Origin: Dyadobacter fermentans
GTDB taxonomy: Bacteria; Bacteroidota; Bacteroidia; Cytophagales; Spirosomataceae
DNA: 64,000 nt
Direction of reading: 5' to 3'
Assembly (NCBI RefSeq): GCF_019924045.1
Contig: NZ_JAHXBN010000006.1
Coordinates: forward strand, 124,001-188,000
A program made the position numbers and the translations under genes. Below, one piece after another: positions 231-59,700 of this stretch (position 1 is the stretch's first letter; the number at the start of each line of letters is the position of its first letter). The notes under the pieces were generated by a model, which did no database searches, had not been told where the DNA came from, and saw only the letters and a list, made by a program, of their open reading frames with translations.

Positions 231-1067
231 TTATCCGCCGATCGCTACACGTTTGAATGAGGTTACAGACAAACCTTTTGAAGTTTTCTCAAGCAGCTGA
301 CGGATAGTCAGTGAAGAATCCTTCACGAACTCCTGGTTCAACAGGGTGCTGTCTTTGTAAAACTTCTGAAGTTTACCCTGAGCGATTTTCTCAAGCATTG
401 CCTCAGGCTTACCTTCCGCACGAGCCTGCTCTTTACCCACTTCGATTTCGCGCTCGATAGTAGCAGCGTCGATACCGTCTTTGTCAAGCGCAACCGGCTT
501 CATAGCGGCAATCTGCATTGCTACGTCTTTACCAAGTTCTGCAACATCCGTTCCGTTTACGCCGGCGAATGCTACCAACACACCCAATTTACCGTTTGAG
601 TGGATGTAAGGGACAACTTTGTCAGCTGTTACGTTCTCGTAAGCGCTGATTTCCAGTTTCTCTCCCAGTTTACCTGTCAGTTCAACCATGTGCTCTGACA
701 CAGGACGACCGTCAGCCAAAGTTGCAGCCAAAAGGGCATCTTTGTCAGCGATGTTATCGGCTACTGCTTTGTCAAGGATAGATTGCGCAAGGTTTTTGAA
801 ATCTTCCACGTTCGATACGGGCTCGGTTTCACAAGCCAAAGCAACGAGTTTACCATTGGTACCGTCTTCGCTGATGTTGATCAGCACAGTTCCTTCTGAT
901 ACCGCATTGTCGGCACGTTTTGCAGCAACTTTCTGTCCTTGTTTACGGAGAATATCAACGGCTTTGTCGAAATCGCCATCTGCTTCCTGCAGGGCTTTTT
1001 TACAATCCATCATGCCCGCGCCGGTCATCTGGCGGAGTTTGTTTACATCTTGTGCGGTAATTGCCAT
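231..1067 (-). CDS. tsf: Elongation factor Ts
   Basis: This is EF-Ts, the cytoplasmic guanine nucleotide exchange factor that releases GDP from EF-Tu during translation. The 278-residue protein is of normal length. It begins with the typical UBA-like N-terminal domain (residues 1-45, with TGAGMMDCKKAL and the DGDFDKAVDILRK stretch), followed by the two EF-Tu-binding core subdomains. Its position downstream of rpsB on the same strand is the usual bacterial order. Here, however, rpsB ends in its own strong terminator (1162-1198), so tsf is probably expressed partly from a separate promoter or by read-through. I found no clear TAnnTTTG box in the short gap. The ATG at 1067 is the only sensible start, since the EF-Ts N-terminus is complete from there. 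Confidence 0.97.
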   Translation of the reverse strand: MAITAQDVNKLRQMTGAGMMDCKKALQEADGDFDKAVDILRKQGQKVAAKRADNAVSEGTVLINISEDGTNGKLVALACETEPVSNVEDFKNLAQSILDKAVADNIADKDALLAATLADGRPVSEHMVELTGKLGEKLEISAYENVTADKVVPYIHSNGKLGVLVAFAGVNGTDVAELGKDVAMQIAAMKPVALDKDGIDAATIEREIEVGKEQARAEGKPEAMLEKIAQGKLQKFYKDSTLLNQEFVKDSSLTIRQLLEKTSKGLSVTSFKRVAIGG

Positions 1068-1161
1068 GATCTGATAAGAATTTTGTATTAATGTTTTGTA
1101 TTGAAATGACCTTTAACCGGAGATTATCAATTGGTTAAGGAATCGCATTTCGGAGAATTTT

Positions 1162-1198
1162 AAAAAAATGTAGCCCATAGCAAGAGGCTATGGGCTAC
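1162..1198 (-). terminator. Rho-independent terminator of rpsB
   Basis: A perfect 12-bp stem (GTAGCCCATAGC at 1170-1181 and its complement at 1187-1198) has a 5-base loop. On the minus strand it is followed by a run of seven T residues (1162-1168). It lies between rpsB and tsf and should reduce read-through into tsf. Confidence 0.9.
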
Positions 1199-1249
1199 CG
1201 TATATGTCAAGTATGGCGGGTCATTTGAAATTTACGCCATATTGCCCTT

Positions 1250-2068
1250 TTACTCTTCGTCGGATTCAGCAACTTCTGCTTCTGCGGCAACTTCGGCGCG
1301 AGGGGCTGCCTCTTCACCTTTGTCAGCTGCGCGTTTCGCTTCTTCTTCCTCTACCAGGCGCTGATCGTCTTTGTCTTGTTTGCGTTCCATCAAACCTTCT
1401 TCGATAGCCTTACCGATCGCCAGCGTGATCAACGAGATTGCTTTGTAAGCATCGTCGTTAGATGGGATAGGGAAGTCAACCAATTCAGGGTTTGAGTTGG
1501 TATCGCAGATCGCAAAAATAGGGATGTTCAATCTTTTTGCTTCTGCAACCGCAATGTGCTCGCGTTTTACATCAACGATGAAAAGTGCCGCTGGAAGGCG
1601 AGTAAGGTCCGCTACACCACCTAGTACTCTTTCCAGTTTCTCCTTTTCACGTGTAAGCATCAGGCGTTCTCTTTTCGCAATATTGCTAACCGTGGCTTCG
1701 TCTTTCAGCATCTTCTCGAGAGTCTGCATTTTTTTCAAAGACTTGCGAATCGTGCCAAAGTTTGTCAGCATACCACCCAACCAGCGATCGGTTACGTAAG
1801 GCATTTTAAGGCGTTTCGCCTCTTCCGTTACGATTTCCTGCGCTTGTTTTTTAGTAGCAACAAACATGATCTTACGTCCTGAACGAACGATCTGTTTCAA
1901 CGCAGCTTCCGCTTCGTTCAAGCAGCTCAAAGTTTTGTTCAGGTCAATGATGTGGATCCCGTTCTTCTCCATGAAGATATACGGAGCCATCCGTGGATCC
2001 CACTTGCGGGTAAGGTGACCAAAGTGGACACCTGCATCCAATAGTTCTTTATATTCTATTTGTGCCAT
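1250..2068 (-). CDS. rpsB: 30S ribosomal protein S2
   Basis: Ribosomal protein S2 binds the back of the small subunit between head and body. The protein carries the family hallmarks: ELLDAGVHFGHLTRKWDPRM at the N-terminus, the IIDLNKT segment, the DRWLGGMLTNF segment and the ICDTNSNPELVDFPIPSNDDA segment. The tail after about residue 225 is long, charged and rich in Glu and Ala, a variable extension. Two in-frame ATG codons exist at 2074 and 2068. I chose 2068 because MAQIEYKELL matches the usual S2 N-terminus, while the upstream one adds only Met-Ala. The gene follows rpsI on the same strand, but a repeat element fills most of the gap. A terminator follows at 1162-1198. Confidence 0.96.
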   Translation of the reverse strand: MAQIEYKELLDAGVHFGHLTRKWDPRMAPYIFMEKNGIHIIDLNKTLSCLNEAEAALKQIVRSGRKIMFVATKKQAQEIVTEEAKRLKMPYVTDRWLGGMLTNFGTIRKSLKKMQTLEKMLKDEATVSNIAKRERLMLTREKEKLERVLGGVADLTRLPAALFIVDVKREHIAVAEAKRLNIPIFAICDTNSNPELVDFPIPSNDDAYKAISLITLAIGKAIEEGLMERKQDKDDQRLVEEEEAKRAADKGEEAAPRAEVAAEAEVAESDEE

Positions 2069-2153
2069 TGCCAAATTTGATTTAAAATATTTTTAGACTT
2101 GTTACGCAGCACGAAGCATCGGGCACGATAAGCGACGTCTGGACAATTTTTCT

Positions 2154-2287
2154 GTCATTTGTTGTCATTTGTAGTCAGGTATTGTTCTAATAAACCAGAA
2201 AACAACGAATGACCATTCTTGACTATAAATGACTACACTTGACTCTTCTGACCACCGCATGGCCATTTCTGACCACACATGACCAAT
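2154..2287. repeat. TGAC 10-bp ladder repeat, copy 1
   Basis: The left arm has GTCA at 2154, 2164 and 2174, an exact 10-bp spacing. The right arm has the reverse-complement word TGAC at 2210, 2220, 2230, 2240, 2249, 2270 and 2280, with a TGGC variant at 2260. The segment at 2164-2177 can pair with 2220-2233, with 13 of 14 Watson-Crick pairs plus one G-T. The right arm ends about six bases from the rpsI stop codon. It shares stretches such as ATGACTACACTTGAC with copy 2 (28516-28707). No open reading frame is present. Its role is unknown. Confidence 0.8.
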
Positions 2288-2292
2288 TGATA

Positions 2293-2679
2293 TTAACGTT
2301 TCGAGAACTGGAATCTTCTGCGAGCCTTAGCGCGTCCGTATTTCTTACGCTCAACCATACGTGGGTCACGGGTAAGGAATCCTTCTTTTTTCAATGCGCC
2401 ACGGAATTCGCCGTTGTATTGAACCAGTGCACGTGAAACCGCCATACGGATAGCTTCCGCCTGGCCTGAGATTCCACCACCTCTTACGTTTACTTTGATA
2501 TCGTAACCATTTCCACCTGAGATTGTCGCGAACGGTTGTTGCAACACGATCTGGTGTACTTCAAATGGGAAATATTCTTTGTAATCACGACCGTTTACTT
2601 TAATGTCGCCTTTACCGGGTGTAAGGTAAATACGAGCAACGGCTGTTTTTCTTCTACCTATTGTGTTGATCACTTCCAT
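2293..2679 (-). CDS. rpsI: 30S ribosomal protein S9
   Basis: Ribosomal protein S9 is a small-subunit head protein whose C-terminal tail reaches the P-site tRNA. The 128-residue product has the family pattern throughout: TIGRRKTAVARIYL at the start, VRGGGISGQAEAIRMAVSRAL in the middle and the basic tail ending YGRAKARRRFQFSKR. It starts three bases after the rplM stop codon, so the two genes form the conserved rplM-rpsI operon and are probably translationally coupled. The stop codon is followed almost at once by a copy of the TGAC ladder repeat. There is no ordinary terminator hairpin, so the repeat may take that role. Confidence 0.97.
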   Translation of the reverse strand: MEVINTIGRRKTAVARIYLTPGKGDIKVNGRDYKEYFPFEVHQIVLQQPFATISGGNGYDIKVNVRGGGISGQAEAIRMAVSRALVQYNGEFRGALKKEGFLTRDPRMVERKKYGRAKARRRFQFSKR

Positions 2680-2682
2680 GAA

Positions 2683-3126
2683 TTACAATTGGATTTGCTT
2701 TGGTTGCTGTGCGCTGTGCGGGTGTTCTGCGGCAGCGTAAACAAACAGGTTTGTAAATAAACGACGTCCCAAACGGTTCTTTGGAAGCATGCCTTTCACG
2801 GCTTTCTCGATCACACGCTCAGGGTGTTTTTCGAGCAACTCGCGAGGAGTTTGAAAACGTTGACCTCCTGGGTAACCTGTGTGGCGAACATAAACCTTGT
2901 CCGTCATTTTCTTACCTGTCAACTTGATCTTATCGGCGTTGATAACGATAACGTTATCACCACAATCCACGTGAGGAGTGTAGCTTGCTTTGTGTTTGCC
3001 TCTGATAATTTTAGCAACTTCGCTGGCCAGACGACCAAGAACTGCATTTTCAGCATCCACAACAATCCACTCCTTGTTTACTGTGTTTTTGTTCGCCGAG
3101 ATGGTTTTGTAGCTTAACGTATCCAC
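2683..3126 (-). CDS. rplM: 50S ribosomal protein L13
   Basis: Ribosomal protein L13 is an early assembly protein of the large subunit. The sequence shows [50 protein letters not shown] and the [11 protein letters not shown] motif, all typical of L13. The open frame can be read from a TTG at 3135. I prefer the GTG at 3126 because [13 protein letters not shown] is the form of N-terminus I recall in relatives. It is the first gene of the rplM-rpsI operon. A good Bacteroidetes-type promoter lies upstream at 3199-3229. The tail ([13 protein letters not shown]) is slightly longer than the minimal L13 and ends just before rpsI. Confidence 0.95.
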
Positions 3127-3198
3127 GATTAACAAAAAATTAAATTGATTTTCAATAATTTACACTGTAACAAGACAGTCCATCGCAAAATGGGAGTG

Positions 3199-3229
3199 CA
3201 AATATAGAGTTTAACAAATTGAATTACAA
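3199..3229 (-). promoter_or_regulatory. Probable promoter of rplM-rpsI
   Basis: On the minus strand there is TTG at 3229-3227, then 20 bases, then TATATTTG at 3206-3199. This fits the known Bacteroidetes sigma-A pattern of TTG near -33 and TAnnTTTG near -7. It lies about 73 bases before the rplM start, leaving room for a 5' leader. Confidence 0.6.
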
Positions 3230-3251
3230 GTATGTTTGTGAAATTCATTTG

Positions 3252-3953
3252 TCAATTCCCTAATCCAAAGGCCAATGCGACGTACGGAAGGCCGTAAAGT
3301 TTGGACACATGTCGCTGGTTGTTATCGAGGTAAACGTTGAAACCGTCGCTTTTTTTCGTGGTGTAGGTAAGCCGGGTATAAGCGTAACCGAGCTTCACGC
3401 CCACTCTCCGGGTTGCCATAAAACGCACAAATGCTTCCGACTGCCCGGTGTTCCTGCGCAGGGCTAACGGCAATGCATTGAAGAGCGTAGGTTTGCTGGC
3501 CAGCCACTGATTATAATTGGGTGCACCGGTACCGTTTGTGGGAACATTCTTCTCATAGTACCCATGCCTCTTCGAGCCGTAAGTCAGTCCAAGCAGGTCG
3601 GTATTCACACCGATATCGAGTTTCCAGAAGCTCACGTTCACACCTGCGACAAAGCTGAGCCCATTGACAGAAACGTCCCGGTATTCCAGATAATCCTTGA
3701 TGCCTGCCATGCGCTCGGTGTAGAGGTTTGTCCTACCGTCGTAGAGCCCCCATGCCCTGAAACCGACACCAATCCGCAGCCACGGTAACCGCTGCGAACC
3801 TATTTCCTCGTGATACATGACAGAGGGTGCCCACGAGTTGCTCCCTAAGCTGGCACCGACATCCACACCGGCAGCAATCGGGGAAGTATATTGTGCGTGT
3901 GTGGAAGTGGCATTCAGTAATAAAATGATCAGTAGTCCTTTTAAAATTTTCAT
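3252..3953 (-). CDS. Predicted outer-membrane beta-barrel-like protein
   Basis: I do not recognise a named family. From the ATG at 3953 the 233-residue product begins with a basic start and hydrophobic core (MKILKGLLIILLLNATSTHAQ), a clear signal peptide ending near residue 21. The mature part is rich in glycine, tyrosine and alternating hydrophobic residues. It ends in GLPYVALAFGLGN, like the closing strand of small outer-membrane barrels, though the last residue is Asn, not Phe. The frame is open further upstream to 4031, but that would overlap the divergent gene at 3972 and would bury the signal peptide. Only 18 bases separate this start from that gene. A barrel with unknown ligand is the likeliest reading. 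Confidence 0.6.
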   Translation of the reverse strand: MKILKGLLIILLLNATSTHAQYTSPIAAGVDVGASLGSNSWAPSVMYHEEIGSQRLPWLRIGVGFRAWGLYDGRTNLYTERMAGIKDYLEYRDVSVNGLSFVAGVNVSFWKLDIGVNTDLLGLTYGSKRHGYYEKNVPTNGTGAPNYNQWLASKPTLFNALPLALRRNTGQSEAFVRFMATRRVGVKLGYAYTRLTYTTKKSDGFNVYLDNNQRHVSKLYGLPYVALAFGLGN

Positions 3954-22557: not shown

Positions 22558-22658
22558 AGCCTTCAAAAGCACGCATGCGGCCCATTTTACCGGGAGGCGC
22601 ATCTGCTTTGGTATGATATTTTAAATATTTATCCTGAAAACAATCTTGAAAAAGACTT

Positions 22659-22943
22659 ATGGATAAGATCGAGAAGTTTAAGACCATGGAGAAAATCCTG
22701 CGCGAGATCGAGGATTTGAAAAACAGCGAAACTGCCGTGATCAAGAAGATTGGTCAGATTGAAACAGAAAACATGAACGTCAACGTCCAGAACCTCGACA
22801 AATCACTGAACGAGATTTACGACGGTGTCTATAAAAATCTCCAGAATGTGGAAAACCTTCAAAACTCGTTCACAGAAACGGTAGCCGATTTCAGAAGCAA
22901 GAACAACATCACCGAAGAAATGTTGATGGAACTAAGAGAATAA
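22659..22943 (+). CDS. Small coiled-coil protein of unknown function
   Basis: The 94-residue product is charged and helical, without a signal peptide or membrane segment. Heptad-like spacing of Leu, Ile and Val over nearly the whole length (FKTMEKILREIEDLKN, then NLDKSLNEIYDGVYKNLQNVENL) predicts a coiled-coil. I do not recognise the family. It stands alone between the divergent esterase fusion (102 bases upstream) and the convergent mraY, and it ends in its own strong terminator at 22975-23008, which supports a real, separately transcribed gene. Confidence 0.7.
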   Translation: MDKIEKFKTMEKILREIEDLKNSETAVIKKIGQIETENMNVNVQNLDKSLNEIYDGVYKNLQNVENLQNSFTETVADFRSKNNITEEMLMELRE

Positions 22944-22974
22944 ATTACCCCGATATCATCAGACTAAAAACCGC

Positions 22975-23008
22975 AAAAAGCTCCGATTCGCATGAATTGG
23001 AGCTTTTT
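22975..23008 (+). terminator. Rho-independent terminator of the coiled-coil gene
   Basis: A 15-base stem (22975-22989 with 22994-23008, one mismatch) and a GCAT loop end in TTTTT. The A-rich left foot means it could also work on the minus strand. Confidence 0.88.
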
Positions 23009-23012
23009 GGTT

Positions 23013-23123
23013 GAAGGGAGGAAGGAGAAAAGGGAGGAAGGAGGAAGGAAAAAAGAAAGGACTGACTATAAGAATCCCTTTCCTCCCCTTCCTCCATCCT
23101 CCCTTTTCCTCCCTTTCTCCCTT
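23013..23123. repeat. Polypurine/polypyrimidine inverted repeat
   Basis: Bases 23013-23060 are only A and G, in GGAGGAAGG-like words, and 23075-23123 are only C and T in the complementary order. They are separated by 15 mixed bases. The arms are roughly complementary over about 48 bases and form a long imperfect hairpin that abuts the mraY stop codon. Such tracts can also form triplex DNA. No reading frame is supported here. Confidence 0.8.
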
Positions 23124-28515: not shown

Positions 28516-28707
28516 GTCATGTGCGGTCAGGAGGTTGTCATTTGTGGTCAGGAATTGTAAAATATTCTCTCTTAAATATTATTAACTACCGCTGTCTAAT
28601 CTTGACTATAAATGGCCATACCTGACCGCGCGGTGGACCGCAACACCTGACTATCAATGACTACACTTGACCATAACTGACTATACTTGACAATACCTGA
28701 CCCCTCC
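28516..28707. repeat. TGAC 10-bp ladder repeat, copy 2
   Basis: The left arm has GTCA at 28516, 28526, 28537 and 28547. The right arm has TGAC at 28603, 28623, 28648, 28658, 28668, 28678, 28688 and 28698, with a TGGC at 28613. The spacing is exactly 10 bp except for a 25-bp step (28623-28648) that contains the GC-rich core TGACCGCGCGGTGGACCGCA. Copy 3 has the same core and the same 25-bp step. The two arms are separated by an AT-rich stretch. It ends 15 to 20 bases from the rsmH stop codon and lies inside the presumed rsmH-ftsL transcript. Confidence 0.82.
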
Positions 28708-59565: not shown

Positions 59566-59700
59566 GTCATGTGTAGTCAGGAAGTAGTCATGTATGGTCA
59601 GGAAATAGTCAGGTGTGGTCGGGGATAGTCAAATGAGAGAGAAACAACAAATGACAATGCTTGACCGCGCGGCGGACCGCAAAACATGACAATACCTGAC
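59566..59700. repeat. TGAC 10-bp ladder repeat, copy 3
   Basis: The left arm has GTCA at 59566, 59576, 59587, 59597, 59608 and 59628, with a GTCG at 59618. Steps are 10 or 11 bp. The right arm has TGAC at 59652, 59662, 59687 and 59697. The 25-bp step from 59662 to 59687 holds TGACCGCGCGGCGGACCGCA, nearly identical to copy 2. The copy begins 18 bases after the sigma-factor stop codon and lies between it and its probable anti-sigma gene. Confidence 0.82.

Follow-up and report, generated by a model that had tools for sequence, protein, structure and literature searches.

Ladders of TGAC words behind genes of Dyadobacter as probable gene-less copies of a two-part element with IVP proteins

To our knowledge, the four-helix IVP/S23 proteins have no settled function. 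Among short intergenic repeats, STRR are built of heptamers. The same is true of the TAACTGA sets, which in the passages cited here are direct repeats of one 7-bp word lying mostly upstream of starts in a Beggiatoaceae genome (PMC4679880). IVS elements of 23S rRNA with an S23/IVP frame have been termed selfish in the cited part of PMC4990558. The locus described here lies behind rpsI in a stretch of 64,000 nucleotides of Dyadobacter fermentans (the window; NCBI RefSeq contig NZ_JAHXBN010000006.1, positions 124,001 to 188,000). We think it probable that positions 2154-2283 are a dispersed copy, without the gene, of an element made of two parts, a ladder of short repeats and an IVP gene whose product acts in trans.

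The element consists of two outward-facing arms between rpsI, whose minus-strand stop lies at 2293, and rpsB (Table 1). A query with the rpsI gene found a match in 39 of 39 genomes. An earlier note, made by a model from the letters of this DNA, had described three ladders in the window, the first directly behind rpsI; all three are present, at 2154-2283, 28516-28701 and 59566-59700, and every GTCA and TGAC word was found where the note had placed it, although two units had been overlooked, a TGAC at 2249, 9 bp after its predecessor, and at 2260 a decayed TGGC. At lag 10 no 4-mer of the window is in greater excess than TGAC (11 pairs versus 0.4 at control lags). The claim that the words keep to one face of the helix over 130 bp did not hold up, as 36 bp separate the innermost word of the left arm from that of the right (2174 to 2210), a step of 9 bp occurs, and over 70 inter-arm gaps no residue modulo 10 was favoured (p=.27). 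A search of Rfam with positions 1050-3300 gave two matches, both below the gathering score, the better one to a microRNA family (E 0.037). The block at 2105-2144 before rpsB resembles a leader RNA, with no Rfam match at the gathering score. Inside the second and the third ladder, directly after a TGAC at both places, there is a 15-bp GC-rich insert, CGCGCGGYGGACCGC (28627-28641 and 59666-59680), which is also found in the rpsI ladders of three other genomes (G012, G014 and G023); the three copies present in contig C9 and the window taken together are all inside ladders.

Table 1. Positions of the ladder elements and neighbouring features (window coordinates unless a contig is given)
Feature	Position	Strand	Remarks
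Left arm	2154..2177	-	GTCA three times, as minus-strand TGAC units pointing outward: 2154, 2164, 2174
Centre between arms	2178..2209	no strand	differs among the loci compared
Right arm	2210..2283	+	TGAC at 2210, 2220, 2230, 2240, 2249, 2270, 2280; decayed TGGC at 2260
rpsI	2293..2679	-	stop codon 9 bp from the ladder
rpsB	1250..2068	-	ladder upstream of the gene, same direction as rpsI; name by eye
Block before rpsB	2105..2144	-	in the 25 congeners compared, with small changes; delimits the element on one side
Second ladder element of the window	28516..28701	no strand	arms -4, +2, +6
Third ladder element of the window	59566..59700	no strand	arms -6, +2, +2
GACC 7-bp ladders, examples	C9:975089-975254, 786165-786336 (G000)		

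The genome-wide search for inverted 10-bp arrays that the earlier note had proposed showed that the step is kept across the genome and that the frequency is not that of chance: three TGAC words in a row at 10-bp steps occur 836 times in the own genome (421+415) and the reversed pattern not once, and the inverted form of the ladder gave 71 matches versus 0 for its reversed control. The anatomy was studied on 105 distinct elements from 1.81 Mb of Dyadobacter DNA, comprising contig C9 of the own genome, the window, four stretches of C17 and 70 eight-kb loci chosen for their ladders; the same DNA reversed yielded one element. This choice of loci inflates the rates in the set but not the relative preferences. 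Ten of the 80 loci picked by the ladder pattern came from records that do not bear the name Dyadobacter, and were kept out of the anatomy, arm and turnover analyses. Spacing within the arrays is 10 bp in 1031 of 1186 steps, 20 bp in 77 and 11 bp in 35. The unit, as derived from 1031 copies, is a non-palindromic 10-bp sequence with the consensus TGAC-H-A-Y-W-C-M, much alike in the four genomes compared: position 5 is A, C or T at frequencies of.32,.36 and.31 (G,.01), and is followed by A (.97), C or T, mostly A or T, C (.82), and finally C, A or T. As the step is 10.0 rather than 10.5, long arrays would drift around B-DNA. Sixty of the 105 elements have the plain outward layout (-+), and 33 run in one direction only.

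Three elements of C9 (762963-763050, 1038428-1038451 and 1097658-1097681) have largely the same centre and flanking purine/pyrimidine tracts. Apart from this one small subfamily, an unsystematic look revealed no copying of whole elements between loci, so that transposition of the ladder elements is conjectural.

Genes in the anatomy set were called by a simple script, and spacers of 60 bp or more were counted. The elements are intergenic and lie at a median distance of 13 bp from a stop codon. Convergent spacers carry 30 elements (over 106 spacers), codirectional spacers 61 (over 470) and divergent spacers 8 (over 175), the remaining elements being located at locus edges (5) or inside a gene (1); the preference for convergent over divergent spacers has p=3e-8, and within codirectional spacers 47 elements lie closer to the stop than to the start, and 14 the other way round. 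In C9 alone, the unbiased part of the set, the preference for spacer type was not significant. Intrinsic terminators were found at 1/50 and 5/48 of the ladder-bearing ends versus 103/411 and 53/158 of the others. When leftover spacer length was matched, the deficit persisted in codirectional spacers (1 versus 6.7 expected), and was accounted for in convergent ones (5 versus 6.3). Eight ladder-bearing ends have orthologues in 800 kb of the ladder-free genome G020, and one of these has a terminator. Replacement of terminators by ladders was rejected as an explanation, the deficit being explained by the short leftover spacer in the convergent and only partly so in the codirectional case.

The position at gene ends, the paucity of intrinsic terminators there and the strong predicted folding (-42.5 kcal/mol and z -4.1 for the rpsI element) would all suit an RNA hairpin formed by the two arms and working as a bidirectional terminator or a 3'-end stabiliser. 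We regard this reading as quite unlikely. The pairing of 2164-2177 with 2220-2233 suggested by the earlier note folds on paper, but arms swapped between loci fold about equally well: in 39 elements the folding energy was -44.0 kcal/mol with the own arm, -44.9 with a foreign arm (p=.83) and -21 with a shuffled arm. At the freest position of the unit, 66 of 211 in-register pairs have the same base in both arms (.31), compared with.25-.40 off register, so that there is no sign of co-evolution; arm lengths likewise lend no support to selection for a hairpin. The single-direction elements, which make up nearly a third of the set, show no significant preference of sense (13 versus 5, p=.096), the convergent terminator deficit reflects leftover length, as seen above, and 10 of 25 congeners have no TGAC ladder at rpsI.

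Exchange between loci finds little support either. Similarity of a unit to those of the opposite arm (.538), of other loci of the genome (.546) and of other genomes (.536) is about the same, and only the similarity within the same run stands out (.588). In four genomes, loci shared no more unit pairs than shuffled controls did; for shared triplets SG02 was at the edge (2 seen, with a shuffled mean of 0.2 and a maximum of 2), and exchange between loci was accordingly set aside. Units inside and outside showed no difference of the kind that telomere-like growth from the centre would leave. The arms thus look like independent samples of a single consensus common to the genus. This speaks for a sequence-specific, trans-acting factor: the consensus seems to be kept neither by base pairing nor by copying, but by something that reads every locus. 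An oligomeric protein along the DNA had been proposed in the earlier note; of this proposal the sequence-specific factor survives as the best reading, whereas the argument from helical phase falls, given the unphased arms and the IVP ladders with 7- and 8-bp steps described below. Helical phasing is unnecessary as an explanation, the step being 7 or 8 bp in related families.

The units themselves turn over fast. Within arms, identity peaks at steps of two and four units, and orthologous units have a similarity of.52-.64 versus.51 for random ones (15 pairs with about 74-94% flank identity), or, at rpsI, of.50-.75 versus.40 (9 pairs); the orthologous pairs were drawn from the available loci, most of which had been chosen for a ladder. 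Turnover of this kind, the two- and four-unit periodicity and the lack of a ladder in 9 of 36 congeners could be expected of a functionless, minisatellite-like filler, expanded by slippage where it does no harm and owing its shared consensus to a recent origin. This is the least probable of the readings that we weighed: a position occupied almost evenly by A, C and T with 1% G, in a consensus that hardly differs between four genomes, is not what filler predicts, there is no consensus particular to a locus, 15 of 25 congeners retain a ladder at rpsI in spite of changed units, and filler would not match its word to a clade of proteins.

A candidate for the trans-acting factor came from the complete form of the element. 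Among five ladder loci inspected outside the class, two (L348 and L350) have a gene for a four-helix protein between the arms, and a profile search of 41 Dyadobacter genomes with PF05635 gave a match in 36. The coordinates of the IVP genes coincide with ladder matches, as in G002, where arms at 22587-22632 and 23125-23150 of contig C2 enclose a gene at 22706-23020. Fifty IVP loci were collected, 30 as the best match of 30 genomes and 20 added by E-value and coordinates. Seventeen Dyadobacter loci form one clade and adjoin the same gene, by eye a prfB. Of these 17, a sample that was not blind, 15 have the IVP gene between outward TGAC ladders, GTCA upstream and TGAC downstream; exact 10-bp TGAC pairs were present on both sides in 14 of these 15, the upstream arm being decayed in the own genome. 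In the other two (L389 and L398, a nested pair) GAAC, the word that flanks the IVP of G015 and G367, recurs every 10 bp on either side. Two loci picked by the ladder pattern alone (L107 and L113) also proved to have an IVP gene between outward TGAC ladders. The complete form of the own genome (G000:C124:26511-26825, locus L388), likewise next to a gene taken by eye for prfB, is on a contig other than that of the window, and hence was invisible to the earlier note.

The IVP of the own genome scores 101.2 bits against PF05635 (cut-off 33.8) and 98.7 bits against TIGR02436 (cut-off 24). By sequence, a solved relative is 2gsc (E 1e-4), better scores being partial matches to designed TPR proteins. 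The protein is conserved and under constraint: six pairs, of which some have a high dS, gave dN/dS values of 0.40, 0.10, 0.06, 0.04, 0.03 and 0.08, five of the six being at most 0.10. Relatives are numerous: one clade member alone retrieves 1001 protein clusters at E<=1e-15. No paper linking IVP genes with such arrays was found in the open-access literature.

Clade, word and period correspond. In a tree of 48 IVPs, in which several long branches were flagged, the 19 proteins with 10-bp ladders, including two from outside the class, group together as a single branch (100/99), within which the GAAC pair is nested (100/99); the others comprise 17 with 7- or 8-bp flanks and 12 with none at threshold. 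The period labels require 10 changes on this tree versus a shuffled mean of 25.1, a number as low being reached in 0 of 200 shuffles. Four of the 50 loci (L362, L382, L392 and L404) had been dropped by a crude reading-frame filter. A periodic flank (7, 8 or 10 bp) or a TGAC ladder accompanies 34 of 46 Dyadobacter IVPs versus 45 of 400 random C9 genes (p=2e-19). Among the 30 best-match loci, which were not chosen by hand, 18 show a flank that is periodic at 7 or 8 bp, one (L384) has a TGAC ladder, and 11 are without a periodic flank at threshold. One of the other words is GACC, which at 7-bp steps flanks the IVP genes L378 (G002) and L383 (G034), and which forms inverted ladders, with arms in the opposite orientation (+-), 118 times in the own genome versus 0 times reversed; no GACC word was found within the DNA examined around the three IVPs of that genome. 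A genome of another family of the order (G038) seems to have a ladder word of its own, and in it reversed controls match often (91 for CCAG at 7-bp steps, 14 for the reversed ladder control).

The single consensus shared by loci with independent arms and the strict 10-bp step could also be due to an ordinary host DNA-binding protein that polymerizes head to tail, one protomer per 10 bp, and marks the ends of genes, as a road-block or a boundary, with the IVP gene located at such a site by chance. BldC on 9-bp direct repeats and RdfS, at about 10 bp per protomer, set a precedent for such binding in the passages cited (PMC5859096, PMC11963761), where they are winged-helix proteins acting at promoters or att sites. 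We consider this reading unlikely, because it leaves unexplained both the presence of a single IVP clade between the ladders, in Dyadobacter as well as outside the class, and the 7- and 8-bp ladders around other IVPs.

Ladders also go together with the gene across genomes. In the comparison 14 genomes with an intact IVP of the TGAC clade, the own included, had 12 to 729 ladder matches, and the 7 in which its absence was established had 0, 0, 0, 0, 0, 8 and 50, significantly fewer (p=.001); G015, whose IVP has the GAAC word and which had 0 TGAC ladder matches, and the unclassified congeners were left out. The 50 matches belong to a genome with no IVP match (G009) and the 8 to one with a single IVP of another clade (G036), which shows that ladders can outlive the IVP gene or do without it. 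Of the unclassified congeners, G001, with 93 ladder matches, has the IVP beside its ladder in two pieces, and G011, with 409, has one weak IVP match.

The ladder pattern was found in 28 of 59 genomes searched, namely in the own genome (729 matches) and in 27 of 36 congeners (up to 616), and in none of the 22 genomes from outside the genus. In the order, 20 of 341 genomes, including the own, match a four-unit pattern, two of them with exact tandems of a single unit; in the phylum, 5 of 296 do, the own genome and four outside its class. One Thermodesulfobacteriota MAG has a ladder and 147 others of that phylum have none. A Spirosoma panaciterrae genome has 39 three-unit matches, and in another genus of the family an outward TGAC ladder lies between ribosomal protein genes, by eye rpsM and rpsK (L353, G265:C3:63500-64700). 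Phages were rejected as carriers: of four viral contigs with the pattern, three have single-unit tandems (L340, L341, L343) and one near-identical units (L342), and no IVP relative was confirmed in viral contigs. One IVP on a plasmid (Pseudanabaena) has no clear ladder.

The rpsI site shows what may occupy one and the same place. Between rpsI and the block before rpsB, 25 congeners, the own genome included, have a TGAC ladder in 15 cases, another inverted element in 6 (G003, G010, G013, G015, G017, G022) and a near-empty spacer in 4 (G007, G008, G009, G020). The six other elements have a 7-bp periodicity, with a lag-7 identity of.35-.55; it is weak in G003 (.37), where other lags are equal or better. 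Two TGAC ladders tested at this site had lag-10 identities of.53 and.58. The flanks of G003 and the own genome are 92-96% identical, and yet the two genomes have different kinds of element at rpsI.

In the mechanism that we favour, the complete element is composed of ladder arm, IVP gene and ladder arm, and the IVP (PF05635, TIGR02436, a four-helix bundle) would act in trans on TGAC-H-A-Y-W-C-M arrays, probably by binding the units, as DNA or as RNA. Different IVP clades have their own word and period (10, 8 or 7 bp). The arrays are located right behind stop codons, where inserts harm least, and gain or lose whole units, in many cases two at a time, while the shared partner would hold them to one consensus. 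The protein may aid the spread or the persistence of the element, as RAYT does for REP, or as proposed for S23 and IVS. On the wider proposition our judgement is evenly balanced: that IVP/S23 proteins are sequence-specific partners of genome-wide ladders with a word and period particular to the clade, that word and protein change together, as from TGAC to GAAC within a single clade, that gene-less copies spread behind genes, and that the IVS would then be one particular member of a broader class of selfish elements which join a gene to repeats. A partnership of IVP and ladder would give this long-puzzling family a first clue to its function, which would become directly testable through a readable cognate DNA or RNA word for each clade; if true, it would also explain many unexplained intergenic repeats in these bacteria.

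Compared with the 23S rRNA IVS, as these appear in the cited part of the source, the complete form is likewise short, with inverted ends that enclose an S23/IVP gene, the copies in the window being gene-less. Unlike the IVS, the ladders are not inserted in a 23S rRNA helix: the window element is between rpsI and rpsB, the 17 IVPs of the clade are beside prfB (by eye), and ladders follow many protein genes. Their ends, moreover, are arrays of short degenerate units, present in many copies per genome, most of those seen without the gene. With the TAACTGA sets the ladders have in common that many sets of short intergenic repeats occur sporadically across phyla, Bacteroidetes among them, according to the passages cited (PMC4679880); they differ in being inverted, degenerate, of 10 bp, tied to IVP genes and placed behind stops, as the codirectional spacers illustrate. 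The RAYT itself was rejected as the partner of the ladders, since 40 of 41 congeners have Y1_Tnp (PF01797), whether or not they have ladders, and by eye it does not track the ladder counts. The REP/BIME repeats and their RAYT, as portrayed in the portions of the papers cited (PMC3733652, PMC1525189), are similar in that the repeats are dispersed behind genes, in convergent and codirectional spacers, and flank the cognate gene. The ladders are, however, made of 10-bp non-palindromic units and not of palindromes of 20-40 bp with a GTAG or CGTC tag, and their putative partner is an IVP and not a Y1 transposase; if our reading is true, a partnership like that of RAYT and REP would be made up here of unrelated parts.
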